A stretch of DNA of 32,587 bases. Origin: a virus. Shown here piece after piece: positions 4,059 through 31,018 of this stretch (its first letter is position 1; the number at the start of each line of letters is the position of its first letter). The notes beneath the pieces were generated by a model. It saw nothing but the letters and a program-made list of their open reading frames with translations, was not told the DNA's origin and searched no databases. The DNA is taken from positions 1-32,587 of IMG/VR virus record IMGVR_UViG_3300042352_000719, one strand, 5' to 3'. Made by a program: the position numbers and the translations under genes.

Positions 4059-4450
4059 GTTATTTGATTTACGTAAACGGTTTAGGTCCTAACTATAAGG
4101 GTGATAACCTTTACGAATTCATATTCTCCGATAGTTTGGATGTGTGGGGTGAAGCGTGGGATAATCGTCCGTCTAACGGATACCCTCAACCACCTGATTT
4201 AAAATATATTAAAAAAGTAGGAGTTTTGAGAGATACTGATGTAAAATTGGAATTGATTCAAAACTCCGATTTTTTTTCAGTAATGGACGCAATGGACGAC
4301 ATAATTGCGTTAGCATGGGAAACAGAAGATGAAACTAACCAAAAAAGAATGGTTTTTAGATTTGGAGTTTCGGAACAAGAAATAAAAGACAAACTCTATG
4401 AAAGAGATTTGGTATTAGAATTTGAAAAGAAAGTAGTCTATGAAAGTTAA
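4055..4450 (+). CDS. Conserved-looking hypothetical protein
   Basis: 131 aa, not recognised. It is a compact mixed alpha/beta protein with aromatic N-terminal motifs (YLIYVNGLGPNY, WGEAWDNRPSNGYP) and a C-terminal segment MVFRFGVSEQEIKDKLYERD. It starts inside the stop of the preceding gene (ATGA overlap) and itself overlaps the next gene by 11 nt, so translation is likely coupled along 2727-6529. The position upstream of the terminase is where T4 has neck and small-terminase genes, but no sequence signature supports either assignment. Confidence 0.65.
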   Translation: MSYLIYVNGLGPNYKGDNLYEFIFSDSLDVWGEAWDNRPSNGYPQPPDLKYIKKVGVLRDTDVKLELIQNSDFFSVMDAMDDIIALAWETEDETNQKRMVFRFGVSEQEIKDKLYERDLVLEFEKKVVYES

Positions 4451-5228
4451 TATAAAAGCATTAGAACTTATCGAAAAGGGGTTATCCTCTAAAACTGTTG
4501 GGAAATTAACAGAATCTCAAATCAATGTTTTACACAGTAAACTTGTTAATGAACAAGTTACTGAGGTACCCGGTAAAAAAACATATAAAGTAGGGCCGGC
4601 AGGTGGTAAGGTAGGTAATTTGAATATTACACAAGACCCGAGCACTAAAGAAGTTATGGTTACTGCAACCGAATCTGAAATCTCTGAAGATGATGATTTT
4701 GATTTAGATGCTGACCAAGCATATACAGGACAACAAGGTTCTCATGACGAATATCAAGCATCTGATGATGGTATGGATGATGATACATCTCCTGAAAATC
4801 ATGACAGCAAAATGATTGGTATGTCTGAAGAAAAAAAAGACAAACCAAACCCATGGGCTATTTGTCACTCACAAGTTGGTCCTAAAAAATCAAGAAAATG
4901 GGAAAGATGCGTAAAAGCGGTAAAAAAACAGTTGGGTGAAGGAAAAAATGTTGTATCTTTGTTTCTTGAAAACGAAATTATGAGAATAGTAGAAAGAAAT
5001 TTACCTCCAAGAATCACCAAAGGTGAACTTGTAAAGTATTTGACAGAGGCAGATACTGAGACCGCACCAACAAGAACAAAACCAACAACTAAGCCTGGTA
5101 CAAGACCAAGTCATCCGGGTAAGAATCCAAATCCGGGTGTTAATCCAGCACCAAAGGCGAATAGACCATCACCTGAGGAGGCTAAAGACAAAATTATGGA
5201 TGTAATCATGCAAATCTTAGAAAAATAA
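4440..5228 (+). CDS. Modular phage protein with N-terminal TES...EQ tag
   Basis: 262 aa. Residues 24-39 (TESQINVLHSKLVNEQ) align without gaps to residues 8-23 of the gene at 22197-22658 (TESDLNRIVKKVLKEQ), 7 of 16 identical with conservative hydrophobic exchanges. The middle has an acidic Gly/Asp region, then a Cys-containing cassette NPWAICHSQVG...KWERCVKAVKKQ (about residues 138-168). Next comes a second helical element ENEIMRIVERNLPPR ending in KYLTE/AD, and a Pro/Lys/Thr-rich linker. No enzyme domain is seen. The mix of short cassettes suggests a packaged or internal virion protein rather than an enzyme (inference). It overlaps its upstream neighbour and lies 2 nt from the next gene. Confidence 0.65.
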   Translation: MKVNIKALELIEKGLSSKTVGKLTESQINVLHSKLVNEQVTEVPGKKTYKVGPAGGKVGNLNITQDPSTKEVMVTATESEISEDDDFDLDADQAYTGQQGSHDEYQASDDGMDDDTSPENHDSKMIGMSEEKKDKPNPWAICHSQVGPKKSRKWERCVKAVKKQLGEGKNVVSLFLENEIMRIVERNLPPRITKGELVKYLTEADTETAPTRTKPTTKPGTRPSHPGKNPNPGVNPAPKANRPSPEEAKDKIMDVIMQILEK

Positions 5229-6542: not shown

Positions 6543-8303
6543 TTGAATAATAAAGAACAATTAATAATTGAAGTAACGAAGTGCATGAGGAATACACCCT
6601 ACGCACTTCGTACTTATTTACAGACATACGATAATACGGTATCAAAATATGTACCGTTAGATTTATTTCCCGACCAAGTTTCTTTAATTGAGGATTATGA
6701 AAATTACAATGAAAACATCGCCCTTAAGTATAGACAGGCAGGTGTTTCAACAGTAACTGCCGCTTGGGCGTCAAAACGACTTGTATTTGCCAAAAAAACT
6801 AAACCGGAAAAAATTCTAATCATTGCCAATAAATTGGATACATCCATGGAGATGGCAAACAAAGTTAGAGGTTTTACCGAACAATGGCCTAGTTGGGTTG
6901 GAGTTGGATTCTCAAATGAAAAAAACTCACAACGACATTTTAAATTAACAAATGGGTGTGAAGTTAAAGCCGTTGCAACATCTCGAGATGCGTTAAGGGG
7001 TTATACCCCAACCATTCTTATCTTTGATGAGGCGGCGTTTATTGAAGCGGACGGAGATTTTTGGTCGGCTTGTATGGCGTCCCTATCTACAGGGGGTAAA
7101 GTAATTGTGGTTTCAACCCCAAATGGTTATGATGCAATTTACTATGAGATTTACGACCAAGCTCTTCGTAATATGAATGATTTCAAAATTACGGAAATGT
7201 TTTGGCACCGTGACCCTCGATATACCAAAGATTTGTATATGGTTAAAACACCTGATTTAGTTCACTTTTTACTAAATCGTGAGGAATATAACCTCGATGA
7301 GGTAATTATTGATTTATCAATGCCTAATCCATTCGAAAGGGACCATTCAATTGTAACTAAATATATTGAAGATGGATACAAACCTTGTTCCTCATGGTTT
7401 GAGGCGATGGTTAAAAAATTAAAATACGATAGACGTAAGGTGGCTCAGGAGTTAGAATGTAACTTCTTAGGTTCAGGGGATAACGTATTTGATTCTGAAT
7501 TAATGCAGGATATTGCCAAAAACCAAGTTAGAGAACCACAGGCAAAAATGATGGGTGGTGGATTATGGATTTGGAAAGAACCTGTAAATGGACACAAATA
7601 TGTTATGGGTTGTGATGTATCTCGTGGAGATTCTGAGGATTTTTCAAGTATTGAAATTATTGATTTTGACACTAGAGAACAAGTATTGGAATATGTTGGA
7701 AAAATACCACCAGATGTATTGGCCGAAGTGGCGTACAAATGGGGTACAATGTATAATGCTTATTGTGTTGTGGATATCACAGGTGGTATGGGAGTTTCAA
7801 CTGCAAGAAAAATGCAAGAAATGAACTATCAAGGTGGTTTATATGTTGATGGTGTGGATACAACTAATAAATGGAAGTATGACCCAAAAATAAATGAAAA
7901 AATTCCGGGAATTAATTTTAACTCAAAAAGGGTTCAAATTATTGCGGCATTTGAAGAGTCAATGAGACATAAGTTTAGAATTTATTCTAGTCGTCTTTAT
8001 AATGAAATGAATACGTTTGTTTACATTAATGGACGACCTGACCATCAAAAAATGCATCACGATGACTGTATTATGAGTATTGCGATGGCAATATATGTTG
8101 CGGAAAAATCATTCCAATCATTGGAAAAAGTTACCAATCATACAAGGGCAATGTTAAATTCATGGTCAACAGCTGTTACTGAAAATAAAAACTCTTCAGA
8201 GTTCTTTAACCCAATGGTTCCTCAAATGGGTAGACAACACCCAATTAATCAAGGACCGACAAGAGATGATTACCAAAAGTATGGGTGGTTATTTGGTGGG
8301 TAA
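6543..8303 (+). CDS. Terminase large subunit (gp17-like)
   Basis: 586 aa (T4 gp17 is 610). This is the packaging motor ATPase and headful nuclease that docks on the portal. The ATPase half shows a deviant Walker A KYRQAGVST (62-70), where the usual GK(S/T) lysine is replaced by Val and a Lys sits at the motif start as in many KxRQxGxST terminases. Walker B is TILIFDEA with Asp162 and catalytic Glu163; the coupling motif is STPNG (191-195). The RNase-H-like nuclease half has MGCDVSRGD (Asp358), CVVDITGG (Asp411) and HHDD (505-508). The start is TTG at 6543; the next in-frame Met is residue 15, still before the first conserved block, so the exact start is uncertain. Confidence 0.95.
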   Translation: MNNKEQLIIEVTKCMRNTPYALRTYLQTYDNTVSKYVPLDLFPDQVSLIEDYENYNENIALKYRQAGVSTVTAAWASKRLVFAKKTKPEKILIIANKLDTSMEMANKVRGFTEQWPSWVGVGFSNEKNSQRHFKLTNGCEVKAVATSRDALRGYTPTILIFDEAAFIEADGDFWSACMASLSTGGKVIVVSTPNGYDAIYYEIYDQALRNMNDFKITEMFWHRDPRYTKDLYMVKTPDLVHFLLNREEYNLDEVIIDLSMPNPFERDHSIVTKYIEDGYKPCSSWFEAMVKKLKYDRRKVAQELECNFLGSGDNVFDSELMQDIAKNQVREPQAKMMGGGLWIWKEPVNGHKYVMGCDVSRGDSEDFSSIEIIDFDTREQVLEYVGKIPPDVLAEVAYKWGTMYNAYCVVDITGGMGVSTARKMQEMNYQGGLYVDGVDTTNKWKYDPKINEKIPGINFNSKRVQIIAAFEESMRHKFRIYSSRLYNEMNTFVYINGRPDHQKMHHDDCIMSIAMAIYVAEKSFQSLEKVTNHTRAMLNSWSTAVTENKNSSEFFNPMVPQMGRQHPINQGPTRDDYQKYGWLFGG

Positions 8304-8342: not shown

Positions 8343-10202
8343 ATGAGTGAACAACAAAATAATATGACGGTATGGCAGAGATTATCCCAAACATTTGGAC
8401 CTAATTCTCTGTTGAATCAAGATTATCCAACTTTTAAGTTTGATAAGAAGGAATTATTACGTACCAAAAGTAAGGAAGAATACGAAAAAGAGAAGTTACA
8501 GGCACAACAAACCTATTACTTAACAAATCAATGGGCAAAAGTTGAGAATAACTTATATTCCCAAGCAATCTATTACGAACCATCAAGGTTATCCGCACAA
8601 TACGATTACGAGTCAATGGAGTATACTCCTGAGATTTCTGCTGCGTTAGATATCTATGCGGAAGAATCAACAACAACAGATGAAGATGGTTTTATTCTAC
8701 AAATTTATTCTGAATCAAAAAGAATAAAAGGGGTACTAGCCGATTTATTTAACAACTCACTTGATATTAACACTAACTTACCAATGTGGACAAGAAACAC
8801 TTGTAAGTATGGTGATAACTTTATTTATTTGAAATTAGACCCGGAGAAAGGTATTGTTGGAGTACAACAATTACCGACAATTGAAATTGAACGTCATGAA
8901 GTAGGTGTTAGTGCAAAAATCTCTACGGATATTACTCATGAAATAGATAAAGATAAAAAGTCACTTCATTTTACTTGGAAAAATAAAAACATGGAATTCC
9001 AATCATGGGAGATTGGTCACTTTAGATTATTAGGTGATGATAGAAAACTTCCTTACGGAACATCTATGTTAGAAAAAGCAAGACGTATTTGGAAACAATT
9101 ATTGTTATCAGAGGATGCAATGTTGATTTATCGTACATCAAGAGCTCCTGAGAGAAGAATGTTTAAAGTATTCGTAGGTAATATGAACGATGATGATGTT
9201 GAGGCTTATGTACAACGTGTTGCAAACAAATTCAAAAGAGAACAAGTAGTGGATAATAAAACAGGTAACGTAGATATGAGGTTTAATCAAATGGCGGTTG
9301 ACCAAGATTATTTCATTCCTGTTAGAGACCCATCAGCACCGGACCCTATTACAACATTACCGGGAGCAACAAACCTTTCTGAGATTGCGGATATTGAATA
9401 CATCCAAAAGAAATTATTAACCGCTCTTCGTGTCCCTAAGGCGTTCTTAGGATTTGAAGAAGTAGTTGGGGATGGTAAAAATTTATCATTACAAGATATT
9501 CGTTTTGCAAGAACTATTAACAGAATCCAAAAAAGTATGATTGCGGAATTAAATAAAATTGCAATCGTTCATTTATTTTTACTTGGGTTTGAAGATGAGT
9601 TAGATAATTTCACATTAGGTTTATCGAATCCTTCAACACAGGCGGATTTATTAAAAATTGATGTTTGGAAAGAAAAAGTTTTATTATACAAAGATTTAGT
9701 TGCCGACCCAGGAAATGGTATTCAAGCAACATCATCAACATGGGCTAAAAAACATATATTTGGATGGTCAGATGAAGAAGTTCGTTTGGATTTACAACAA
9801 CAAAGAATTGAAAGAGCTGTTGGTGAAGAACTTAAAGCAACTGCAACTGTTATAACTAAAACAGGATTATTCGATAATATCGATAAACTTTATGGTAATA
9901 CATCAGGTTCTACCGCGGCAGTATCGTCTGAAACATCAGAACCTACACCATCATTTGGTGGAGGTGGTTTTGAAACTGCTGATTTAGGTGGAGGTGAAGA
10001 ACTACCACCGGCAGGTGAGGAAACGGCAGCTCCACCACCGGCGGGAGGTGAGGCTGAAATAACGCCAGAATCACGAATGAATAACTTAAATATGTTAGTT
10101 GAGAATAACCTAATTGACGGGGCTCGAATGATTAATTTAGGTCATGGTCAAGAATCTTTAGGAGAAATTTCAAAAGAATTGGATAAGTTACTAAATTCCT
10201 AA
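8343..10202 (+). CDS. Portal vertex protein (gp20-like)
   Basis: 619 aa (T4 gp20 is 524). This is the dodecameric head-vertex ring through which DNA is packaged and to which the terminase docks. T4-portal features include the N-terminal YEPSRLSAQYDYESMEYTPEISAALDIYAEE block (about 76-110), NTCKYGDNFIYLKL, SEDAMLIYRTSRAPERRMFKV, and QKKLLTALRVPKAFLGFEE with the long helix SLQDIRFARTINRIQKSMIAELNKI. After about residue 520 there is a Gly/Pro/Ala/Glu-rich extension not typical of T4 gp20, then a short helical end (NLNMLVENNLIDGARMINLG). It follows the terminase directly; T4 has tail sheath and tube genes between the two. Confidence 0.95.
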   Translation: MSEQQNNMTVWQRLSQTFGPNSLLNQDYPTFKFDKKELLRTKSKEEYEKEKLQAQQTYYLTNQWAKVENNLYSQAIYYEPSRLSAQYDYESMEYTPEISAALDIYAEESTTTDEDGFILQIYSESKRIKGVLADLFNNSLDINTNLPMWTRNTCKYGDNFIYLKLDPEKGIVGVQQLPTIEIERHEVGVSAKISTDITHEIDKDKKSLHFTWKNKNMEFQSWEIGHFRLLGDDRKLPYGTSMLEKARRIWKQLLLSEDAMLIYRTSRAPERRMFKVFVGNMNDDDVEAYVQRVANKFKREQVVDNKTGNVDMRFNQMAVDQDYFIPVRDPSAPDPITTLPGATNLSEIADIEYIQKKLLTALRVPKAFLGFEEVVGDGKNLSLQDIRFARTINRIQKSMIAELNKIAIVHLFLLGFEDELDNFTLGLSNPSTQADLLKIDVWKEKVLLYKDLVADPGNGIQATSSTWAKKHIFGWSDEEVRLDLQQQRIERAVGEELKATATVITKTGLFDNIDKLYGNTSGSTAAVSSETSEPTPSFGGGGFETADLGGGEELPPAGEETAAPPPAGGEAEITPESRMNNLNMLVENNLIDGARMINLGHGQESLGEISKELDKLLNS

Positions 10203-11539: not shown

Positions 11540-12256
11540 ATGAAACAATTAAGAATATTAGAGGCAACCGAAACCGGACACGGTATATTAGTTGAGGCTG
11601 ACGCAGGTTGGGTTTCACCAAAAGACAAACATAATGAAAAGGTTTTAAGAGAGGCTAAAGAAATGGATTATAGAAACCCATTTGAATTTTATGCCGTTTT
11701 ACAAAAATATGATACACCTAACAGAAATGGTAGAACATACCCTGAAAGGATATTAAAAAGAGAGGCCGACAATTATAAAATTGCAATCGAAAAAGGATTA
11801 TCAACATCAGAGTTAAATCACCCTGAATCATCTTTAATTGATTTAGACCGAGTATCTCATATCATTACTGACGTATGGTGGGATAGAAACATATTAATGG
11901 GAAAACTTAAATTATTAACTTCTCCGGGATTTCATGAAAGAGGAATTGTTTCAACTAAAGGAGACCAAGCAGCAAATTTAATGAGACAAGGAGTTACTTT
12001 AGGTATTTCTTCTCGTGGGGTTGGTTCACTTAAAAAAGTTGGGGAAAGAAACGAAGTTCAAGATGATTTTGAATTAATTTGTTTTGACTTAGTATCATCA
12101 CCATCAACACCGGGAGCGTATTTGTTTACAAATGCTGACGATAGAGACAAGTATGAAGAAAATCTTGAAGAAGAAAAAAAATATAAACAAAAAGACGATT
12201 ATGTTGAGAAGTCAGTTGACTTAATGAAAAAATTAAACGACTTTTTAGGAAAATAA
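11540..12256 (+). CDS. Prohead core protease (gp21-like)
   Basis: 238 aa (T4 gp21 is 212). This serine protease matures the prohead by cutting scaffold, capsid and internal proteins after (L/I)xE. The family core is visible: VLQKYDTPNRNGRTYP (53-68), STSELNHPE with the expected catalytic His94, HIITDVWW (107-114), and GVTLGISSRGVGS with the catalytic serine at 157/158, followed by FELICFDLVSSPSTPGA. Its own N-terminus has two candidate self-cleavage sites, ILE/A at residue 8 and LVE/A at residue 19. The C-terminal about 45 residues are a charged tail. The scaffold and capsid genes follow after a small gene and two terminators. Confidence 0.93.
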   Translation: MKQLRILEATETGHGILVEADAGWVSPKDKHNEKVLREAKEMDYRNPFEFYAVLQKYDTPNRNGRTYPERILKREADNYKIAIEKGLSTSELNHPESSLIDLDRVSHIITDVWWDRNILMGKLKLLTSPGFHERGIVSTKGDQAANLMRQGVTLGISSRGVGSLKKVGERNEVQDDFELICFDLVSSPSTPGAYLFTNADDRDKYEENLEEEKKYKQKDDYVEKSVDLMKKLNDFLGK

Positions 12257-12609: not shown

Positions 12610-14223
12610 ATGCAAGAAAATAACAAATTAGTACAAGAGGCACTTATTCAAATGAAACAAGTTGAAGAAGCTATAGCCGAAAATGCAAAAGGAATACTTG
12701 CTTCAACTATGAAGGAAGAAATCAATCAGTTAGTAAAAGAATCTCTTTCTGAACAAGAAGAAGATGAGGTTGAATTAGATGTTGACATGGATGATGAAAT
12801 GGACTCTGACGAAGAGGAAATGGATTTTGATATGGATACTGATAATGAAGATGAGGATGAAATGGACATGGATTTTGACATGGACATGGATTCTGACGAA
12901 AGTCCAATTGATTTAACAGGAGCTTCTGATGAAGAAATTCTTAGAGTATTTAAAGCTATGGGTGAAGAAGATGGAATTATCGTTCAAAAGGACGGTGAGG
13001 ATATTCATTTAACTGATAACGATAATGACTCAGAATACATTGTTAAACTTGGTGAGTCTGAAGATGAAGATGAATTGTTAGACGAAGAGGATGACATGGA
13101 ATTTGATTTTGAAGAATTAGGTGAAATGGATGACCAAACTACAGATGACGTACTTGATGCGATTTTTGCGGATGGTGATGCTGATGACATCGAATTAGAC
13201 CAAGACGAAGAAGAAGTTATGTTTGAAATTGAATTTGAAGACGATGAAGAAGAAGAATTTATCGACGAAGAAGAAGATGATGACATGATGGACGAACAAT
13301 ACGACGACGAAGAGGACGAAGACGACGACATGATGGACGAACAATATGACGACGAAGAGGACTTAGAAGAATCTTACAACCAAAGAAGAACTGTTAGAGA
13401 ATCAAAATCAACAATTAAACCTAAAGGTGTTGGAATTGGTAAGGGACCTAAATTTACTTACAAAGATAAAGCCGATGGCGGATTCGATGAAAATAAAAAA
13501 GAAGGTCCAAAATCTGTAGGTACAGGTAAAGCTAAATTCGATTACAAGAAAGGTGCAAATATGGAAGGAAAATCCAAAGTTGTTAAGGCAGAAACAAAAG
13601 AAGGTGATTACGGAATGAATAAGGGTGAGAAATCTAAAACCATGAAAGGTAAAGAAGATTACACTACTAAAAAAGGTGACACTTTAAAAAGAAAGGCTTT
13701 TGAAAAAGAAGAAACAAAAGAGGCTGCTAGAACATACGGAATGGGTTCCAAAGAAGGTAGAGGACTTAGAAAAGGGATTACTAATAACAGAAATTATGTT
13801 TACGGTAAAAATGGAGTAAAAGTAGAATCTACTCAAGAGGTAACTATGTTGAGAGAAAAAAATGAAGAATACAGAAAAGCGTTAAATGTTTTCAGAGAAA
13901 AACTTAACGAAGTTGCAATCTTCAATTCAAACTTGGCATATGCAACTAGATTGTTTACTGAACATTCGACTACTAAAAAAGAGAAAATTAATATCTTAAG
14001 AAGATTTGACGATGTTGAAACTTTAAAAGAATCTAAAAATCTTTATCAGTCAATCAAAGGTGAATTATCTAAACCGGAAATTAAAAAATCAATTAGTGAA
14101 TCAGTGGAGAACAAACTTCAAAAAACTGTATCTACAGGTTCATCGACTACTTTAATTGAATCAAAAACTTACGAAAATCCGCAATTCATGAGAATGAAAG
14201 ATTTGATGAGTAAATTAGGGTAA
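12610..14223 (+). CDS. Prohead scaffold/core protein (gp22-like)
   Basis: 537 aa, about twice T4 gp22 (269). Scaffold forms the prohead core and is destroyed by the prohead protease before DNA enters. Residues 1-50 are a helical head; about 48-255 are extremely acidic (Asp/Glu/Met runs) with a 15-residue tandem repeat; about 260-400 is a basic Gly/Lys region with KxxGxGK..F.YK-type repeats. The C-terminal 140 residues are coiled-coil (LREKNEEYRKALNVFREKLN, NSNLAYATRLFTEHSTTKKE), the part that resembles T4-like scaffold proteins. The location between protease and capsid genes supports the call. The acidic/basic two-block design is unusual. Confidence 0.82.
   Translation: MQENNKLVQEALIQMKQVEEAIAENAKGILASTMKEEINQLVKESLSEQEEDEVELDVDMDDEMDSDEEEMDFDMDTDNEDEDEMDMDFDMDMDSDESPIDLTGASDEEILRVFKAMGEEDGIIVQKDGEDIHLTDNDNDSEYIVKLGESEDEDELLDEEDDMEFDFEELGEMDDQTTDDVLDAIFADGDADDIELDQDEEEVMFEIEFEDDEEEEFIDEEEDDDMMDEQYDDEEDEDDDMMDEQYDDEEDLEESYNQRRTVRESKSTIKPKGVGIGKGPKFTYKDKADGGFDENKKEGPKSVGTGKAKFDYKKGANMEGKSKVVKAETKEGDYGMNKGEKSKTMKGKEDYTTKKGDTLKRKAFEKEETKEAARTYGMGSKEGRGLRKGITNNRNYVYGKNGVKVESTQEVTMLREKNEEYRKALNVFREKLNEVAIFNSNLAYATRLFTEHSTTKKEKINILRRFDDVETLKESKNLYQSIKGELSKPEIKKSISESVENKLQKTVSTGSSTTLIESKTYENPQFMRMKDLMSKLG
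13276..13365 (+). repeat. Two 45-bp tandem repeats in the scaffold gene
   Basis: Units 13276-13320 and 13321-13365 each encode DDDMMDEQYDDEED plus one residue, differing by a few synonymous changes apart from the last codon. The repeat extends the acidic tract and may vary in copy number. Confidence 0.85.
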
Positions 14224-14265: not shown

Positions 14266-16098
14266 ATGGGAGCATTATTAGAATCAGGATTAGTTGGTAA
14301 CATCGGGTTAAAACACCTTAAAGTTATCAAAGAAGACACAATCAACAAATGGGACAAATTAGGATTCTTAGAGGGTCTTAAAGGTCACATGAGAGAAAAC
14401 GTTGCACAATTATATGAAAACCAAGCATCGTATTTAATTAACGAAGCATCATCTACATCTGATACAGGTGCATTTGAAACAGTGGTTTTCCCAATTGTTA
14501 GAAGAGTATTCTCTAAATTATTATCTAACGACATCGTTTCTGTACAAGCTATGAACTTACCAATCGGTAAATTATTCTACTTCGTACCAAACATCCAATC
14601 GTATACTGAAGATTCAACATCTACTAATGGTATTCACCGTAAACCTTACGGAGCACCTGGGTATGACAACGCAATTGACGGACCTGATGGACCAGGAAGT
14701 GGTTACGACTACAACAACACTAAAGACCTTTACGATAGATTCTATGAAGGTAACGAACCAGCTTTAGACCCACCAGGTTTATATGACTATTCAAAAGGAC
14801 AATTCTCTGCTGTTACTCATTTAAGTACTAATGGAACTAAAGTTGTTACTGTTGCTTGGGCTGGTGATTCATTAGTACCTTCTTCGTATTCAACTAGTGA
14901 CTATAGAAAAGTATTAATCGTTATGTCAGGTTTTGCATCTAATGGAGCGGGTAAATTAATCGGTCCTGATGGTCAACCAATGGACAATGAATCTTTCTTA
15001 GCTGATTTAACTATTAAAGGTGTTGGAACTAACTGGTATACATCTGCAAATACAACTAACCCTTACTTATTTAGAGTTGTTACTCAAAGATATGGTAAAG
15101 GTATTGTTGAGTACGGAAACAACAACTCTACATTATTATTCCCTGAAAGTAAAACAGGTGGTGGTCAATATGACAACTTATGTGATGCTGAAGGAAAAAT
15201 CTATTTAGAGGTTGATTTACAAGTACCAGTATGTATTACTTGTGGTGGTTCAATGGACGGTTACACAGGTTCAACATTCTCAAGTAACACAGAAAATAAC
15301 AACGCATTCGTTGCTAGTTATAGAATCTACAAAAACTTAGAGTTTGAAGATAGAATTGGTGAGGTTTCTTTTGACTTAATGTCAGTAACTGTTTCTGTAA
15401 CAGAAAGAAAATTAAGAGCACAATGGTCTCCTGAAATGGCACAAGACGTTGCTGCATTCCACAACATCGATGCTGAAGCTGAATTAACAGCTTTATTATC
15501 TGAGCAAGTTGCGGCTGAAATCGACCGTGAAATCTTAAGAGATTTACGTAAAGGTGCAGCATGGAACTTACGTTGGGATTACAATGGTTGGAAACGTTTA
15601 GGGTCTTCTGCAGTTCCTTACACTCAAAAAGACTGGAACCAAACGCTTATCACAGCGATTAACCAAATCTCTGCTCAAATCCACAAATCTACATTAAGAG
15701 GTGGGGCTAACTGGATTGTAGTTTCTTCTGAAATCTCAGCTATCTTTGACGATTTAGAATACTTCCACGTATCAAACGCTTCTCCTGAGCAAGACCAATA
15801 CAACATGGGTATTGAAAGAGTTGGTACTCTTGCAGGACGTTACCAAGTTTACCGTGACCCTTACTTCCCACCAAACCAAGTGTTAATGGGACACAAAGGA
15901 ACATCATTGTTAGACACAGGTTATATCTACGCACCATACGTACCATTACAATTAACTCCAACAATGTATAACCCATTCAACTTTACACCTATCAAAGGTA
16001 TTATGACACGTTACGCTAAGAAAATGGTTAATAACCGTTTCTACGGACGTATCACAGTTGATGGTGTTAGAACATTCGACTTAAGAGAATTGAGATAA
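14266..16098 (+). CDS. Major capsid protein (gp23-like)
   Basis: 610 aa (T4 gp23 is 521). This is the shell protein of the head. The T4-type N-terminal region includes KEDTINKWDKLGFLEGLKG and the conserved FETVVFPIVRRVFSKLLSND and VQAMNLPIGKLFYFVP blocks (70-107). The C-terminal half has AQWSPEMAQDVAAFHNIDAEAELTALLSEQ, REILRDLRKGAAWN and GITRYAKKMVNNRFYGRI-like segments. A likely maturation site is LINE/A after Glu60, matching the T4 position near residue 65 and the (L/I)xE rule. An inserted Gly/Asn-rich region with a Cys pair (CITCGG) about residues 120-350 explains the extra length. The 42-nt leader is A-rich with no obvious late box. Confidence 0.95.
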   Translation: MGALLESGLVGNIGLKHLKVIKEDTINKWDKLGFLEGLKGHMRENVAQLYENQASYLINEASSTSDTGAFETVVFPIVRRVFSKLLSNDIVSVQAMNLPIGKLFYFVPNIQSYTEDSTSTNGIHRKPYGAPGYDNAIDGPDGPGSGYDYNNTKDLYDRFYEGNEPALDPPGLYDYSKGQFSAVTHLSTNGTKVVTVAWAGDSLVPSSYSTSDYRKVLIVMSGFASNGAGKLIGPDGQPMDNESFLADLTIKGVGTNWYTSANTTNPYLFRVVTQRYGKGIVEYGNNNSTLLFPESKTGGGQYDNLCDAEGKIYLEVDLQVPVCITCGGSMDGYTGSTFSSNTENNNAFVASYRIYKNLEFEDRIGEVSFDLMSVTVSVTERKLRAQWSPEMAQDVAAFHNIDAEAELTALLSEQVAAEIDREILRDLRKGAAWNLRWDYNGWKRLGSSAVPYTQKDWNQTLITAINQISAQIHKSTLRGGANWIVVSSEISAIFDDLEYFHVSNASPEQDQYNMGIERVGTLAGRYQVYRDPYFPPNQVLMGHKGTSLLDTGYIYAPYVPLQLTPTMYNPFNFTPIKGIMTRYAKKMVNNRFYGRITVDGVRTFDLRELR

Positions 16099-16182: not shown

Positions 16183-17259
16183 ATGATTAAACAAACTTGG
16201 AATATAAGTGAGGATGAAAAAAATAGGATTTTAAATCTTCATGAGAGTGCAACTAAAAGAATGTACTTATCAGAACAAAATGAAGTTGAGCCTACATCCT
16301 ACTATGAAATAGATGGAACCGGATTAAAATTTAAAGTTCGTAACGGTAAATTATACTATGCAATCTTAGACGAAGAATATGGTATGGTAATACCTAAAAT
16401 TTTTATGAATGGTAATATGGAGGATTTTAAAGTTAATCCTAATGATAAAGAATTAATAATGCCAAATAAAGGATTTGAAAATAGCCTTTTAATTACCGAC
16501 GATAAATGGCCGAATATTTCAGCGGCTCAAAATGTTAGACCTCAAGAGTATAGTAATGTTGATTTTAAGTTCATAGGACTTGTATCAGACAAACTTCCAA
16601 AAAAACCAAGAGACCCAAAAATGATTGGTAGACCAATAGTTTTTACTGCTAAAGTACTACGAAGAGAAATAGAAATATTAAAGAGTGAAGGTTATAAAGA
16701 ATCAGAGGATGGTTCAATATCTCCACTTACATATGTTAAAAGAGGTCGTGATGGGATTTATTTGGACTTGTATCCTTCCGCAGGACATACTTCATATTAT
16801 TCAGGAGAACCGGACCCAACACCGGACCCAACACCGGACCCAACACCGGACCCAATACCATTTGAATTAAATATTACAAGTCCATTTAAATTTAATGAGA
16901 CTGATTTAACAGATGAGGCTAAACAAGAATTTAAAGATTTTATCGAATCTGTTAAGGAAAACTACGCAAATGTTCAAGGGGATGTTGAGGTTATATGTTC
17001 TGCATCTATAGATGGACCTCCTGACCAAAAAAGAATTGATTATGATATGAATTTATCTAAAAGAAGAGCTGAGGCAATTGTGTCAATTCTTAAGACTAGT
17101 TTACCGGGAACTAAGTTAAACTTTATCCCTAAAGGTATTGGACAAACAGACCAATTTGCTAAGGGTAAAAAATATCCTAATGTAAAAGATGAAAATGAAA
17201 CAGCTCCTAATAGAAGATTAATTATTAAACTTCCTCAAATAATGAAGCAACAACAATAA
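16183..17259 (+). CDS. Tagged protein with C-terminal OmpA-like domain
   Basis: 358 aa. Residues 1-31 form a helical tag (MIKQTWNISEDEKNRILNLH, then ESATKRMYLSE/Q) nearly identical to the start of the 17777 gene. A unique middle region of about 175 residues follows, then a (Pro-Asp-Pro-Thr)n linker at 210-225, then an OmpA/MotB-like domain (about 226-352). That domain is recognisable by FNETDLTDEAKQEFKDFI, VEVICSASIDG, LSKRRAEAIVSILK and NRRLIIKLP. OmpA-like domains usually bind peptidoglycan non-covalently. No signal peptide or membrane helix is present, so it is not an outer-membrane protein of the phage-infected cell in the usual sense; a virion or injected protein contacting the wall is more likely (inference). 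Confidence 0.8.
   Translation: MIKQTWNISEDEKNRILNLHESATKRMYLSEQNEVEPTSYYEIDGTGLKFKVRNGKLYYAILDEEYGMVIPKIFMNGNMEDFKVNPNDKELIMPNKGFENSLLITDDKWPNISAAQNVRPQEYSNVDFKFIGLVSDKLPKKPRDPKMIGRPIVFTAKVLRREIEILKSEGYKESEDGSISPLTYVKRGRDGIYLDLYPSAGHTSYYSGEPDPTPDPTPDPTPDPIPFELNITSPFKFNETDLTDEAKQEFKDFIESVKENYANVQGDVEVICSASIDGPPDQKRIDYDMNLSKRRAEAIVSILKTSLPGTKLNFIPKGIGQTDQFAKGKKYPNVKDENETAPNRRLIIKLPQIMKQQQ
16810..16857 (+). repeat. Four 12-bp tandem repeats (PDPT linker)
   Basis: Unit ccggacccaaca is repeated four times (the last with one change), encoding Pro-Asp-Pro-Thr. It forms the rigid linker before the OmpA-like domain. The near-perfect identity indicates recent expansion. Confidence 0.9.
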
Positions 17260-17289
17260 AAAAAAGGGTCTTAATAGACCCTTTTTTTT
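17258..17289. terminator. Bidirectional terminator between convergent genes
   Basis: aaaaaaaagggtct (17258-17271) and agacccttttttt (17276 on) form a 14-bp stem with loop taat, flanked by A- and T-tracts, so it works on both strands. It separates the 16183 gene (+) from the 17297-17686 gene (-). Confidence 0.9.
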
Positions 17290-17296
17290 ATTATTC

Positions 17297-17686
17297 TTAA
17301 AATACCTTAATATTAATAATTTTTTTATCGACATAATCATCAAAACAAAAAACCATAACATATTTGTTAGGACTTGGTAAAGTTCCTTTATAAGAAACTG
17401 TTTTCATAGTAACTACTCCGGTTGTCTTGTGTAAAACATATGAATATCCTGTGTAAGAATACTTTTCGTGTAATTCTACATTTAAATCAAATTCGTCAAA
17501 AAATTTAACATTAGTTAAATTAGTGGTATCTATTTTATAGTTATCCATTAATTTTTTAACTGATATGGAATCACGTTTCCATAAATCGTTTAATTCATAA
17601 AAGTCTCCTGCCTCTCTGATAGTAAGTTGACCAAATGATAGATTCGAAATAAAAATAAAAAGAATGATGGTAATTAAGTTTTTCAT
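17297..17686 (-). CDS. Small secreted protein with signal peptide (moron candidate)
   Basis: 129 aa. The N-terminus is a classical Sec signal peptide: MKN, hydrophobic LITIILFIFISNL, then SFG/Q, the cleavage style common in Flavobacteria. The mature part (about 110 aa) is unknown, beta-rich and aromatic (KYSYTGYSYVLHKTTG, KYVMVFCFDDYV), probably periplasmic. The gene is inverted relative to its neighbours, has its own host-type promoter (17712-17743) and a terminator at its end. That is the layout of a moron, an independently expressed host-modifying gene. An action at the cell envelope, for example blocking a second phage, is plausible but unproven. Confidence 0.72.
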   Translation of the reverse strand: MKNLITIILFIFISNLSFGQLTIREAGDFYELNDLWKRDSISVKKLMDNYKIDTTNLTNVKFFDEFDLNVELHEKYSYTGYSYVLHKTTGVVTMKTVSYKGTLPSPNKYVMVFCFDDYVDKKIINIKVF

Positions 17687-17711
17687 ATGTGTAGATGTTT
17701 TAATATTTGTA

Positions 17712-17743
17712 CAAATATAAATATTTTTTAATTACCTACAAAA
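17712..17743 (-). promoter_or_regulatory. Bacteroidetes-type host promoter
   Basis: On the minus strand: TTTTG (17743-17739), exactly 19 nt, TATATTTG (17719-17712). This matches the Bacteroidetes sigma consensus TTTG / TAnnTTTG with normal spacing. Transcription should start about 7 nt downstream, leaving a leader of roughly 20 nt before the ATG at 17686. The same elements with the same spacing occur at 19562-19593 and, with TATCTTTG, at 22117-22147. Confidence 0.75.
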
Positions 17744-17753
17744 CTTTTTGGTT

Positions 17754-17763
17754 ATATTTATTA
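17754..17763 (+). promoter_or_regulatory. Candidate late promoter, 23 nt before ATG
   Basis: ATATTTATTA begins 23 nt before the ATG at 17777. It lies back-to-back with the minus-strand host-type promoter in the same 90-bp gap, so early (minus) and late (plus) transcription would diverge here. Confidence 0.5.
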
Positions 17764-17776
17764 TAAAATAGTTGAA

Positions 17777-19300
17777 ATGATTAAACAAACATGGAATATA
17801 GACGAAGACGAAAGAAATAGGATATTAAATCTTCACGAGAGTGCAACTAAAAACTTATATTTAATTAAGGAACAACAGGTTAAGATTGGTGAAAAAATAA
17901 CTACAACAGATAAAAATTTTGAGTTGGATAAAAAATCATTTCCTGCCGGATTTTATTCTATTAACAAATTGGGTGAAGGTAAAAAAGATTTGGACGCTAA
18001 ATTACAGGAGATTGCTCAATTTGCACAAGAAAATAATGGTAGTCAAGTTAATATTCAGATTGAGGTTGGTGAATCTAAAGTAACTAATTTTGACAATGAA
18101 TTAAAAAAAACTTTGGCTCAAGGAGAACTTGCAAAATTAAGAGGCCAAAAATTACAAGAATATTTAACTAACTATTTCCAAGGATTAGTTGAATCAAAGT
18201 ATTTGACTACAATGCCAAATATACCAACCCCTCAAACAAATGTTGAGCTTGGTACTCAAAAACACGATTATATTAGAGGTACAGATAATCCTAAAGACCC
18301 TAAGTATTTGGATGACCAGTATGTTAAATTTATTATTACATTATCCTCAACTAAAAAAGAGGATGTTTATGGTTGTTTAGTTGATTTAACTATTGATGTA
18401 AGTTACTACGGTCAGAAAGATTCAAAATTCCCTTGTAGAGGTGGTCACTATTGTGATAATGCAAAATTTGAAGTATTTTTAGCTAGTACATCAATAGGGA
18501 TTGCAGATTTAAATAATTCAGAATGTAGAGAAAAAGTATTAAAAGATAGGACAGCTTGTGATAGAACCGCAAAACTTACCGTTACTAACGATATGGTTCA
18601 AAAAATAATTTCTGACCCAAATTGGAATCAAAAAACTTTAATATTATCAACAAGATGTATATCAAGTGCTAATTGTCATACATCCATTCAAGAAGTTAAA
18701 ATTGTTAATGGGGAAGGTGTTGTTGTGTATCATGGTTGTGTTAACCCTCAATCTGCAAGAGGTAACACATCTCAAAAAATATTAGCAGTTTTAGATAAAT
18801 GTGGTAAACCGATTGAGGGGTCAATCGACGATAATGTTAGTCCTGATGAGATGAAAGCGTTATCTGATGAGGTTAAGGTAAATGATAGTAAAAAGGTGTT
18901 AGAGATTGCAAATACTGAAGGATTTAATGTTGGTCCAAATTTAGGTATAAACATAGGAATAGTGACAAATAATTGGTATGAACTAACAGATTTAAAGATG
19001 GGTAATAATATTTTAACCGGAACGTTTAAAATTAAAAAGGCCGCTTATTATGGAACGTTTGTTAACCCTTTAGGTGATGGTAGAAATCGTACTTTTAAAT
19101 TTAATATAGGTGATACAGTAAAAATTAATTATCCGGTAATGACTGCTAATATACCACAAAATAAATTAGATAAATTTTTATCAAAAAAATTAATGTATAA
19201 AATCGAAAATTTTGATGGATACTTTGTTATGACTGAATTTAAATATGATGGGAATACATATCCAAGTGGTATTGTTATAACACCAACTACCGAACAGTAG
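17777..19300 (+). CDS. Tagged protein with divergent OmpA-like domain
   Basis: 507 aa. Residues 1-32 repeat the tag of the 16183 gene (MIKQTWNIDEDERNRILNLH, then ESATKNLYLIKE/Q). Residues about 50-195 look like a diverged OmpA-like fold: FPAGFYSINKLGEGKKDLDA, an amphipathic helix, VNIQIEVGESKV, and LAKLRGQKLQEYLTNYF in place of the usual N-L-S-x-x-R-A helix. The central part has several Cys residues (GCLVDL, PCRGGHYCDNA, TRCISSANCHTS), and the C-terminal third is beta-rich and unrecognised. It is a paralogue of the 16183 gene at least in the tag. The last 14 nt overlap the 3' end of the lipoprotein gene on the other strand. Confidence 0.72.
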   Translation: MIKQTWNIDEDERNRILNLHESATKNLYLIKEQQVKIGEKITTTDKNFELDKKSFPAGFYSINKLGEGKKDLDAKLQEIAQFAQENNGSQVNIQIEVGESKVTNFDNELKKTLAQGELAKLRGQKLQEYLTNYFQGLVESKYLTTMPNIPTPQTNVELGTQKHDYIRGTDNPKDPKYLDDQYVKFIITLSSTKKEDVYGCLVDLTIDVSYYGQKDSKFPCRGGHYCDNAKFEVFLASTSIGIADLNNSECREKVLKDRTACDRTAKLTVTNDMVQKIISDPNWNQKTLILSTRCISSANCHTSIQEVKIVNGEGVVVYHGCVNPQSARGNTSQKILAVLDKCGKPIEGSIDDNVSPDEMKALSDEVKVNDSKKVLEIANTEGFNVGPNLGINIGIVTNNWYELTDLKMGNNILTGTFKIKKAAYYGTFVNPLGDGRNRTFKFNIGDTVKINYPVMTANIPQNKLDKFLSKKLMYKIENFDGYFVMTEFKYDGNTYPSGIVITPTTEQ

Positions 19301-20996: not shown

Positions 20997-21683
20997 ATGA
21001 AAAAGAATAAGATTAGTGAAGCAACCAGTTCCGGAAATTCAGGTTCAATTAAAGTTCCAATAGTACTAGCGCCTCAAATTTGGGAAAAAAAACAATTAGG
21101 ACCTTTTACTGATGATGTGTACAAATATACGAATGCGGAATTAGCGTATGAAGAGGCTGATGGGGATTTTAAAGAAACACCACAAAAACGAAAAGAAATT
21201 GAAAATAGAACAATAAAAATATCTAAATTATTAATGAAACAAAAGAAAGATTACCGAGGACAAAATGATGAAGAAGGTTCTGCGGTTAATCCAACTATGG
21301 ATGGATTACCATTGAAAGAAGATTTATTAAGAGAAGATTTAGCGGTTTGGTTTGGTACTAAAAAGAAACCTAAAGGGTCTAAACAACCAAAAGGTCCTTG
21401 GGTTAATATTTGTCGTAAAGTTGACGGAAAACATCCTCCATGTGGTCGACCTGATGCAAGCCCAAAAAGTTATCCAAAATGTCGAGCAGCCGGAGTTGCT
21501 GGAAAAATGAGTGATAGTCAAAAAAAATCTGCTTGTTCACAAAAACGTAGAGAAGAAAAGAAAGACCCTAAAATTGGTAAAGGTAACAAACCAACTATGG
21601 TTAGTTATAAACCAAAAAAACCTCAAAACGAATCGTTAAGAGGTTTAATCATCAAAGTAATTAAGGAACAATATAAAAATTAA
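20997..21683 (+). CDS. DUF5872-like protein with C-terminal EQ tag
   Basis: 228 aa. Residues about 106-185 match the DUF5872-type pattern: LREDLAVWFGTKKKPKGSKQ, PWVNICRKVDGKHPPCGRP, SYPKCRAAGVAGKMSDSQKK and ACSQKRREEK, with conserved cysteines and many basic residues. I know this family from phages and giant viruses; function unknown. The N-terminus has KISE/A at residues 5-8, and the C-terminus ends with ESLRGLIIKVIKEQ plus three residues. That resembles the helical EQ-ending tag seen at the N-termini of other proteins here, but at the opposite end. The high basic charge would suit a DNA-associated internal head protein (inference). Its stop abuts the stop of the opposing gene with no gap. 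Confidence 0.7.
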   Translation: MKKNKISEATSSGNSGSIKVPIVLAPQIWEKKQLGPFTDDVYKYTNAELAYEEADGDFKETPQKRKEIENRTIKISKLLMKQKKDYRGQNDEEGSAVNPTMDGLPLKEDLLREDLAVWFGTKKKPKGSKQPKGPWVNICRKVDGKHPPCGRPDASPKSYPKCRAAGVAGKMSDSQKKSACSQKRREEKKDPKIGKGNKPTMVSYKPKKPQNESLRGLIIKVIKEQYKN

Positions 21684-22196: not shown

Positions 22197-22658
22197 TTAA
22201 CAGTAAGGAGATGAACACCTTTTTTTTCCGTCCAATCCGGGTTTGGTTCCCTTACATACTTGAACTGCATATCCATTTGCGTAAGCGGAAGGGTAAACAT
22301 CAAATTTTGACTTAGCAGCAGCTTTACCTCTTGTACATAATTTGGTACCTGTTTTCTTTTCACCTTCACTAATGTCTTCGTAATCGATATATTCTTTTTT
22401 TGTCTCGTTCATTAAGAAATCAAATACTTGGTCCATATTATTTTTAGCTTCAGTTACGTGGTCATCCGCCCAATCATGTCCCCCTTCATTAATAATTTCA
22501 TCAATTTGTTGAGGGTCCATTTCTAACAATATTTCACATTGTCTTTTAATTTGTTGTAGATTACTAAAAAACATATAATCGGCAACTTCTTGTTCTTTAA
22601 GAACTTTTTTTACAATTCTGTTTAAATCAGATTCTGTTATTTTAACTATTTTTTTCAT
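22197..22658 (-). CDS. Tagged small protein with YPSAYAN Cys-basic module
   Basis: 153 aa. Residues 1-23 form an amphipathic helical tag ending VLKE/Q (TESDLNRIVKKVLKEQ at 8-23), matching the 4440 gene tag. The middle is helical and acidic. The C-terminal about 50 residues carry KLCTRGKAAAKSKF, DVYPSAYANGYAVQVCKG and a Cys/Lys end, a module I recall as recurrent in phage genomes but without known function. The tag plus basic Cys-rich cargo layout suggests a protein carried in the virion (inference). It is the last gene of the structural operon; its ATG shares one base with the previous stop and it is closed by a terminator. Confidence 0.68.
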   Translation of the reverse strand: MKKIVKITESDLNRIVKKVLKEQEVADYMFFSNLQQIKRQCEILLEMDPQQIDEIINEGGHDWADDHVTEAKNNMDQVFDFLMNETKKEYIDYEDISEGEKKTGTKLCTRGKAAAKSKFDVYPSAYANGYAVQVCKGTKPGLDGKKRCSSPYC

Positions 22659-29157: not shown

Positions 29158-29964
29158 TTACTCATTTGATAGTTCATATTTTATGGCTCTATCCTCAACG
29201 AAGAAATATTCTCGTTTTGCAGTTTGAATCCAAAACTTAACCTCATCCTCTGTCATTACAGACTCTCCAAACTTATAATTCCAAAATATTGAACCTTCCC
29301 TCATATTAGTATGTTTATAACCAAGTTTAGGGATGGTCATAATTGAGACTGAATTATACGTTAACCTTAATAAAAATTCGTAAATAAATGTCAATTTAAT
29401 TGATGATTTGAAACCACCAAAATCTTCAATAATTTCTTTTTTAAATACCGAACCGGCAGTTTGAAAATTCTGATAATTTTGTAATGTATCATTAGTTAAA
29501 AATCCAACTTCTTGAGAGAAGTTAGCTGCAAATGTTGCCTCATTTGTGAAACCAGCAAAGACACCTTTTTCATCTGTTTCTACAACTACTGGTAAAAACA
29601 TCTGTATTTCAGGATACGCCTCACTATAAGTTTTAACATTTTTAAACCAAATTGATGAATATTCATCATCAAATTCAAACAATGAAACCCATTTACCCTT
29701 AGCGTTTTTAATACCGTGATTAACTTGGTCCATATAACTCGGGTCTTTATCCCAAAGTAATTTATTAACTGATAATTCCCCAAAATCATATCCATTTAAA
29801 TAAGAGACCAATGACTCTTCCGGAGTGTGTATGATAATTAATTCTTCAATACCAACTTGTTGGTTTTTAATAGACTCAATTGCTTTGTTAAAATAATTTT
29901 CAAAATCTTTTGATTTTGAAGATTTGATTGGTAATATAATTGAAAGTGATAATTTGTTTTCCAT
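29158..29964 (-). CDS. Glycosyltransferase, GT2-like (GT-A fold)
   Basis: 268 aa. The start LSLSIILPIKSS is the first strand of a GT-A nucleotide-sugar binding fold. DQVNHGIKNAKGKWVSLFEFDDE (in parts: DQVNHGIKNAKGKW, SLFEFDDE, residues 79-101) gives the AKGKWV-FxDDD element with Asp99/Asp100 as the metal/sugar-nucleotide site. FQTAGSVFKKEIIEDFGGF is the acceptor-side motif typical of GT2 enzymes. Sugar and acceptor are not predictable. It sits between the GT-B enzyme and the sigma factor with 0-2 nt gaps. Possible targets are virion proteins, such as the Thr-Pro protein, or host glycans. Confidence 0.78.
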   Translation of the reverse strand: MENKLSLSIILPIKSSKSKDFENYFNKAIESIKNQQVGIEELIIIHTPEESLVSYLNGYDFGELSVNKLLWDKDPSYMDQVNHGIKNAKGKWVSLFEFDDEYSSIWFKNVKTYSEAYPEIQMFLPVVVETDEKGVFAGFTNEATFAANFSQEVGFLTNDTLQNYQNFQTAGSVFKKEIIEDFGGFKSSIKLTFIYEFLLRLTYNSVSIMTIPKLGYKHTNMREGSIFWNYKFGESVMTEDEVKFWIQTAKREYFFVEDRAIKYELSNE

Positions 29965-29965
29965 A

Positions 29966-31018
29966 TTATTCTTCTGTTTTTGTAATTTGTTGTTCGAACG
30001 CGTCAGCTCTTGTGTTTAAGTAATCTTCAAATAAGGTAACTACAGTTGATTCGAATTTTTGTTTATCTGAAAATTGTTCTGAGGTTTTTTTCATTTCTTC
30101 ATAAACTTCAGGTTTAATATTATCTTCTAGCCAATTTTGAATAAAATCTGCAACAATATCCGCAAGTAACGTTTGGTCTGTTATCCATATTCCATTTTCT
30201 TCATTCATCCAACTAGGTGGTAAATTAGGTACTTTACCGATAACAGGGACATTACATTTCATTGATTCTAATGGGAATGTTCCAAAACCACTTTCGTTAT
30301 CAACCCAAACACTTACAAAACAATCCTTAAGAGAATTTGCAAATTCTGTTTCAGATAAACCTCGTAAATCTCTAAAGGTAAACCAACGATATTGTGGGAA
30401 TTTCAAATAGAACGTTTTAATTAAATTAACTGCGTCGCTTTGGTCTTTAGTATGAATACCAATAATTGGCATTGGTGGTAAAGATTTAGGTTCAAACGAC
30501 TCACTAATATAAGGTTCAATAATATCAAAAGAGCAATTTCTCATAACTTTCTCAATATATTCTTTTTGTTTGTTATTGGTTGTGATGCATTTCATAAAAC
30601 CAAATTGTGCCCAAGTTTGACCTGGTTGTAACGTTTCCAACATATACGCATAAGATTGTGTTAATACAATTTTAGCACACGGTAATTGTTTTACTTGGTC
30701 CATAACATAACCAAATACTTCAGGTATAACTAAAAAGTCTTCAGGAGATATTTCTAAGTTTTGACCTTCAATGGCTTTATGAGGTAACTCCATATATTCT
30801 TCACTTAACCATGCAATAACACCTGCGTAATCGGCCTTTTCATGAAGTATGATTGGGTTAAACCCATTGTCTTTTAATGTTTTACCCATTTGATACATAT
30901 AACGGACAGAAGCTCTTGCATTACCTTTAGTGTCTTGAACTAATAGATAAATTCGGGCTTGTTTGTCTCTTAATGTTTGGATGGATTGTTTTACTTTTTC
31001 TTCTAACGAATTTTCCAT
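29966..31018 (-). CDS. Glycosyltransferase, GT-B fold (GT4-like)
   Basis: 350 aa. The N-terminal half has an ARIYLLVQDTKGNARASVRY strand-loop with a GKTLKDNGFNPIILHE helix-strand, as in GT-B enzymes. The C-terminal donor-binding motif is clear: VSVWVDNESGFGTFPLESMK (235-254) followed by CNVPVIGKVPNLP, equivalent to the E-x7-E element of GT4 enzymes. No membrane helix is present, so it acts in the cytoplasm. Together with the adjacent GT2-like gene it forms a two-enzyme glycosylation cassette; 1-nt gap to that gene implies coupled expression. Confidence 0.8.
   Translation of the reverse strand: MENSLEEKVKQSIQTLRDKQARIYLLVQDTKGNARASVRYMYQMGKTLKDNGFNPIILHEKADYAGVIAWLSEEYMELPHKAIEGQNLEISPEDFLVIPEVFGYVMDQVKQLPCAKIVLTQSYAYMLETLQPGQTWAQFGFMKCITTNNKQKEYIEKVMRNCSFDIIEPYISESFEPKSLPPMPIIGIHTKDQSDAVNLIKTFYLKFPQYRWFTFRDLRGLSETEFANSLKDCFVSVWVDNESGFGTFPLESMKCNVPVIGKVPNLPPSWMNEENGIWITDQTLLADIVADFIQNWLEDNIKPEVYEEMKKTSEQFSDKQKFESTVVTLFEDYLNTRADAFEQQITKTEE

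Follow-up and report, generated by a model that had tools for sequence, protein, structure and literature searches.

Label-like N-terminal tags appear to mark hundreds of related viral genes, often for wall-binding or wall-modifying proteins

Hundreds of related viral genes look, from comparison of their sequences, as if they bear short N-terminal tags that act as labels, often on proteins that bind or modify the bacterial wall, and the best reading is that these tagged wall proteins represent a variant of the internal-protein system of phage T4, extended to wall-directed cargo. Two such genes, which we call P1 and P2, lie in a 32.6-kb piece of an uncultured T4-like virus (the window, by which we mean the whole 32,587-nucleotide stretch analysed), and we think it rather probable that both encode internal head proteins with cleavable capsid-targeting propeptides, which are delivered with the DNA and act at the wall. 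According to this proposal, the first 31–32 residues of each protein would form a helical propeptide that binds the assembling prohead core, a gp21-type protease would cut this propeptide after the Glu in [I/L]-x-E↓Q, and the trimmed proteins would remain in the head, exit with the DNA and, once inside the periplasm of the next host cell, grip its peptidoglycan through their OmpA-like domains. P1 and P2 would thereby belong to a tagged wall-binding and wall-modifying set that helps the tail or the DNA to cross the wall, or that remodels the wall locally. We infer each of these steps, from targeting and cleavage through location in the virion to ejection and wall binding; the sequences speak strongly for the proposed packaging and processing, and delivery to the wall is suggested by the cargo. 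Release into the periplasm is an extra assumption of the proposal; internal proteins of T4, IPI and Alt among them, do their work in the cytoplasm.

P1 (positions 16183 to 17259, plus strand; 358 aa) consists of its tag, a beta-rich middle domain, a Pro-rich linker of DPTP repeats seen in the sequence (16807 to 16860, plus) and a C-terminal OmpA-like domain (16885 to 17169, plus), which is clearly of the PF00691 type by profile, fold and motif residues. Indeed, residues 235–329 match the Pfam OmpA family (E 1.2e-6, 29.2 bits against a gathering cut-off of 27.2), the P1 family profile matches solved OmpA chains in the PDB, the AlphaFold2 model matches OmpA, MotB and TssL with a Foldseek probability of 1.00, and D277 and R295, both invariant in a 12-sequence family alignment, line up with the D and R of OmpA. 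P2 (17777 to 19300, plus; 507 aa) is composed of its tag, a diverged OmpA-like domain (17924 to 18361, plus), in which E99, S100 and R122 are invariant in the P2 family, and a beta-rich C-terminal part without a recognised fold. Because a direct Pfam and PHROG scan of the P2 sequence on its own gave no OmpA match, a scan at the level of the family was needed: PF00691 is matched by 10 of the 18 members of the P2 alignment (best 5e-4), the family profile matches MotY weakly, and in Foldseek OmpA and MotB are highest in probability (0.47–0.63); the domain spans residues about 50–195. We regard the P2 domain as a diverged OmpA-like one on the strength of its family, its own model giving no confident match. 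The original prediction, made from the letters of the DNA, had placed an OmpA-like domain at the C-terminus of P1 and a strongly diverged one near the N-terminus of P2, and the first assignment is borne out while the second is supported through the family; structure prediction, which it had proposed as a check, came out firmly for P1 and gave OmpA and MotB as the best hits for P2. The domains of both proteins would be expected to bind peptidoglycan.

The resemblance to OmpA/MotB-type proteins, by fold and motif for P1 and at family level for P2, stops at the N-terminus, since P1 and P2 are phage-encoded, have neither signal peptide nor hydrophobic anchor and carry their domains behind a probably cleavable tag. 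As the original prediction had it, no signal peptide was found in either protein: in windows of 11 residues close to the N-terminus, the highest mean hydrophobicity is -0.53 for P1 and 0.11 for P2, against 3.1 and 3.4 for two small secreted-looking ORFs that adjoin them, and both proteins thus lack the signal peptide of an exported OmpA-type envelope protein. These two ORFs, which are antisense and have strong signal sequences, stand on either side of P2 (17297 to 17686 and 19287 to 19544, minus); they are possibly lysis (spanin-like) or envelope proteins, and the second is a likely lipoprotein with a weak LPAM_1 match. By contrast, an OmpA hit in the Prevotella phage Lak-A1 (L160), which by eye has a typical signal sequence, a barrel-like part and a C-terminal OmpA domain, was set aside, since it looks like a complete OmpA-type protein of the usual exported kind.

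The tags themselves, MIKQTWNISEDEKNRILNLHESATKRMYLSE↓Q in P1 (16183 to 16275, plus; predicted cut after E31, residues 10–31 helical in the AlphaFold2 model) and MIKQTWNIDEDERNRILNLHESATKNLYLIKE↓Q in P2 (17777 to 17872, plus; predicted cut after E32), are 78% identical across 32 residues, so that both ORFs lie where they were first placed and do share an N-terminal tag. To call the two genes paralogues, as was done at the outset, is right for the tag and the distant OmpA fold and wrong for the remainder of P1 and P2. In scans of viral contigs this tag (tag 1) heads 128 different proteins, whose bodies fall into 37 clusters, and is near-identical across many unrelated bodies; only two hits, both contig-end fragments, are without a nearby Met, and each of the 21 records searched holds one to six tagged genes, mostly two or more. 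The modularity is visible within a single alignment (A11), where one tag and a common C-terminal module enclose differing middle regions. We rejected the idea that the tag belongs to a single OmpA family, since one tag can head unrelated bodies and one body can follow different tags. Among the named phages of the searched collection, none carries tag 1 at detectable similarity, and a description of it, or of the second tag discussed below, was not found in the literature searched.

The last residues of tag 1 have the form [I/L]-x-E↓Q, beyond which the sequences are no longer conserved. In a first set, all 69 of 69 copies end in [ILVMT]xE↓[QDAT], with I or L at subsite P3 in 57, and small indels shift the position of the site between 29 and 32, yet the site is kept. 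Among 37 cluster representatives the information content at subsites P3, P1 and P1' is 2.8, 4.3 and 3.1 bits, falling to a background of about 0.8 one residue on. Of this pattern, just the preference at P1' and the fall after it are largely independent of our choices, because the alignment was anchored on Glu (subsite P1 being Glu by construction) and the site search restricted P3. Some [ILVM]xE[QDAT] near the N-terminus is also borne by 27% of untagged long ORFs, a pool that includes head proteins.

A candidate for the processing enzyme is encoded in the window, where the genes for terminase (6543 to 8303) and portal (8343 to 10202) are followed by one for a prohead protease of the S77/T4 gp21 family (11540 to 12256, plus; PF03420, E 1.9e-21; phrog_207). 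Next come an acidic ORF (12610 to 14223, plus), whose composition and position suggest a scaffold or core protein, and the major capsid protein gp23 (14266 to 16098, plus; PF07068) with a predicted cut LINE60↓A61; P1 begins 84 bases beyond the end of the capsid gene, and P2 is next after P1. The capsid site LINE↓A is invariant among relatives (11 large contigs), and around residue 48 the putative scaffold has ESLSE↓Q, likewise conserved, of the same [I/L]xE form as the tag end; the P1' residue is Gln in the tags versus Ala in the capsid site. The consensus of the T4 prohead protease is [L/I]-x-E. An S77 protease is encoded in 14 of the 16 large tag-bearing contigs, and the remaining two may be incomplete.

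A second tag, MKKIIKLTESDLxRIVKKVLxE↓Q, is like tag 1 at its end only, and 133 of its 134 hits are N-terminal, in 61 body clusters and mostly ending in [ILV]xE↓Q. In the window it stands as MKKIVKITESDLNRIVKKVLKE↓Q (22593 to 22658, minus) on a 153-aa ORF (22197 to 22658), and a tag-2-like segment ending in KLVNE↓Q, recognised from sequence, opens ORF 4440–5228 (4440 to 4553, plus); ORF 20997–21683 has the short N-terminus MKKNKISE↓A (20997 to 21020, plus), with the [I/L]xE site kept in most relatives. Tags are swapped: eight cargo families occur behind both tag 1 and tag 2, comprising the P1-type OmpA (L018, L021; bodies behind tag 2 are 71–76% identical to a tag-1 protein), the P2-type OmpA (L318, E 4e-22), a third OmpA type (L295/L227, 1e-24), a Tlde1-type L,D-transpeptidase (L307/L154, 7e-39), a LysM body (L334/L219), an annexin-like domain (L283/L113) and two further bodies (L303/L105 and L345/L042). 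In a 636-kb phage the P2-type OmpA domain has a third, T4-like N-terminus, MKYLKKYQDYGKINE↓A, which ends in KINE↓A. A 549-aa ORF in L113 has, joined to the end of a long protein, a body that stands behind a tag in L102; the site KVISE↓Q is still present where the two meet.

No domain is recognised in the majority of tagged bodies. Where the cargo of tag 1 does have one, it is mostly peptidoglycan-directed: the Pfam domains are OmpA, LysM (2.4e-16), Tlde1/YkuD, TseH-like, PG_binding_3, annexin and DUF6861, together with low-complexity matches. In 96 untagged control proteins, the 25 of 78 families listed serve chiefly in DNA metabolism, the head or the tail, a handful being wall domains (YkuD_2, GH25 and PG_binding_1), and because the comparison covers those 25 families the enrichment of wall domains in tagged over untagged genes is a clear impression and not a formal test. 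Some readings of the cargo are weak, such as the L,D-transpeptidases of L161 (YkuD, E 0.51) and L103 (no match) and the PG_binding_1-like C-termini, and we did not count the NlpC/P60-like (L167, L172, L176) and lytic-transglycosylase-like (L167, tag 2) cargo seen by eye, for which a PDB sequence search gave no support. An annexin domain (PF00191, E 1e-6) is present in a tagged phage protein (L113:5253-5642), and annexin-looking repeats are seen by eye in L283, L200 and L178.

Known systems provide instructive comparisons. In the passages of PMC9026906 and PMC3012670 that deal with them, T4 internal proteins have cleavable capsid-targeting sequences of 10–19 residues on diverse bodies, and the propeptide directs proteins into the core of the prohead, where it is then removed. 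Like IPI-III and Alt in those passages, the proteins described here have a short N-terminal sequence on unrelated bodies (37 and 61 clusters), closed by a predicted prohead-protease site of the [I/L]xE form, in phages with a gp21-family protease gene and homologues of gp20 and gp23; unlike them, they use different, longer tags (about 30 residues, and about 22 for tag 2) of at least two interchangeable types, and their recognisable cargo is largely wall-directed, whereas that of T4 is anti-restriction or ADP-ribosylating. The ejection and inner-body proteins of the giant phages SPN3US and phiKZ, as covered in the relevant part of PMC5694885, are similar in that several head proteins are trimmed by a gp21-like protease and the SPN3US paralogues gp53 and gp54, with protease motifs, are identical over their first 15 residues; the protease there is of family S80, the motifs are A-x-E or S-x-E, and that part describes no tag common to dozens of unrelated proteins. 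The type VI secretion wall effectors Tlde1 and TseH belong to the same Pfam families as tagged cargo of other contigs, the differences being that the carrier proposed here is the phage head and that Tlde1 and TseH cargo is absent from the window itself.

It could be argued that the tagged proteins are instead tail, baseplate or head-surface parts, with a tag that docks them on the outer surface of the virion and OmpA-like domains that grip the wall at penetration, as the wall-contact nature of the cargo would suit. The hub also has no visible lysozyme, as was first noted (the baseplate-hub/lysozyme profile matches residues 4–28 only), and an untagged protein of about 1,680 aa with an OmpA-like stretch adjoins other large structural-looking ORFs in relatives. 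We think this unlikely, however, since the tag end shares its [I/L]xE form with capsid and scaffold, the prohead protease works within heads, and P1 and P2 directly follow the capsid gene. Such untagged proteins are seen in a 309-kb and a 173-kb relative (L266, L267), and ORFs of similar size with an OmpA-like stretch and no tag in four more.

Many endolysins have no signal peptide, and several tagged cargo families are likewise wall enzymes or binders, so the tagged proteins might be late intracellular products that reach the wall only at lysis, their tag governing storage or stability; this would leave the protease-type site, the tag swaps and the many small non-enzymatic cargo unexplained, and we consider it distinctly unlikely. 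Very unlikely, in our opinion, is a role in head morphogenesis, with tag and site serving core or scaffold assembly and an OmpA-like fold that no longer binds peptidoglycan: the site form common to scaffold and capsid protein and the strong divergence of the P2 domain would fit, but P1 keeps the OmpA-motif D and R across its 12-sequence alignment and other tagged proteins bear unrelated wall domains (LysM, L,D-transpeptidase). Carriage in the virion and contact with the wall, which the original prediction had proposed, are favoured by the comparative evidence because the tag looks like a T4-type capsid-targeting propeptide with a predicted prohead-protease site, P1 and P2 come after the gene for the capsid protein, and further wall domains occur on other proteins with the same tags; what that prediction had missed is a tag that is modular, swappable and probably cleavable.

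More tentatively, and at somewhat less than even chances, we suggest that a large T4-like jumbo clade loads a varied, exchangeable set of peptidoglycan-binding and -modifying proteins into the head via at least two interchangeable cleaved tags and delivers it to the host wall. If true, tagged head cargo would be a phage-borne counterpart of effector delivery, the internal proteome could be predicted across a large group of uncultured phages from the first 20–32 residues that each gene encodes, and many ‘hypothetical’ proteins would become predicted head cargo. It might also answer how large phages of Gram-negative hosts manage the wall when the hub has no visible lysozyme. For the virus of the window a Bacteroidota host is plausible, because its nearest named capsid protein is that of Flavobacterium phage immuto (37% identity). 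Elsewhere in the window, ORF 1860–2705 is mostly Pro/Thr repeats (PTPTPT...) and is possibly a fibre or adhesin, and two ORFs that are glycosyltransferase-like by eye (29158 to 31018, minus) adjoin the tail genes.
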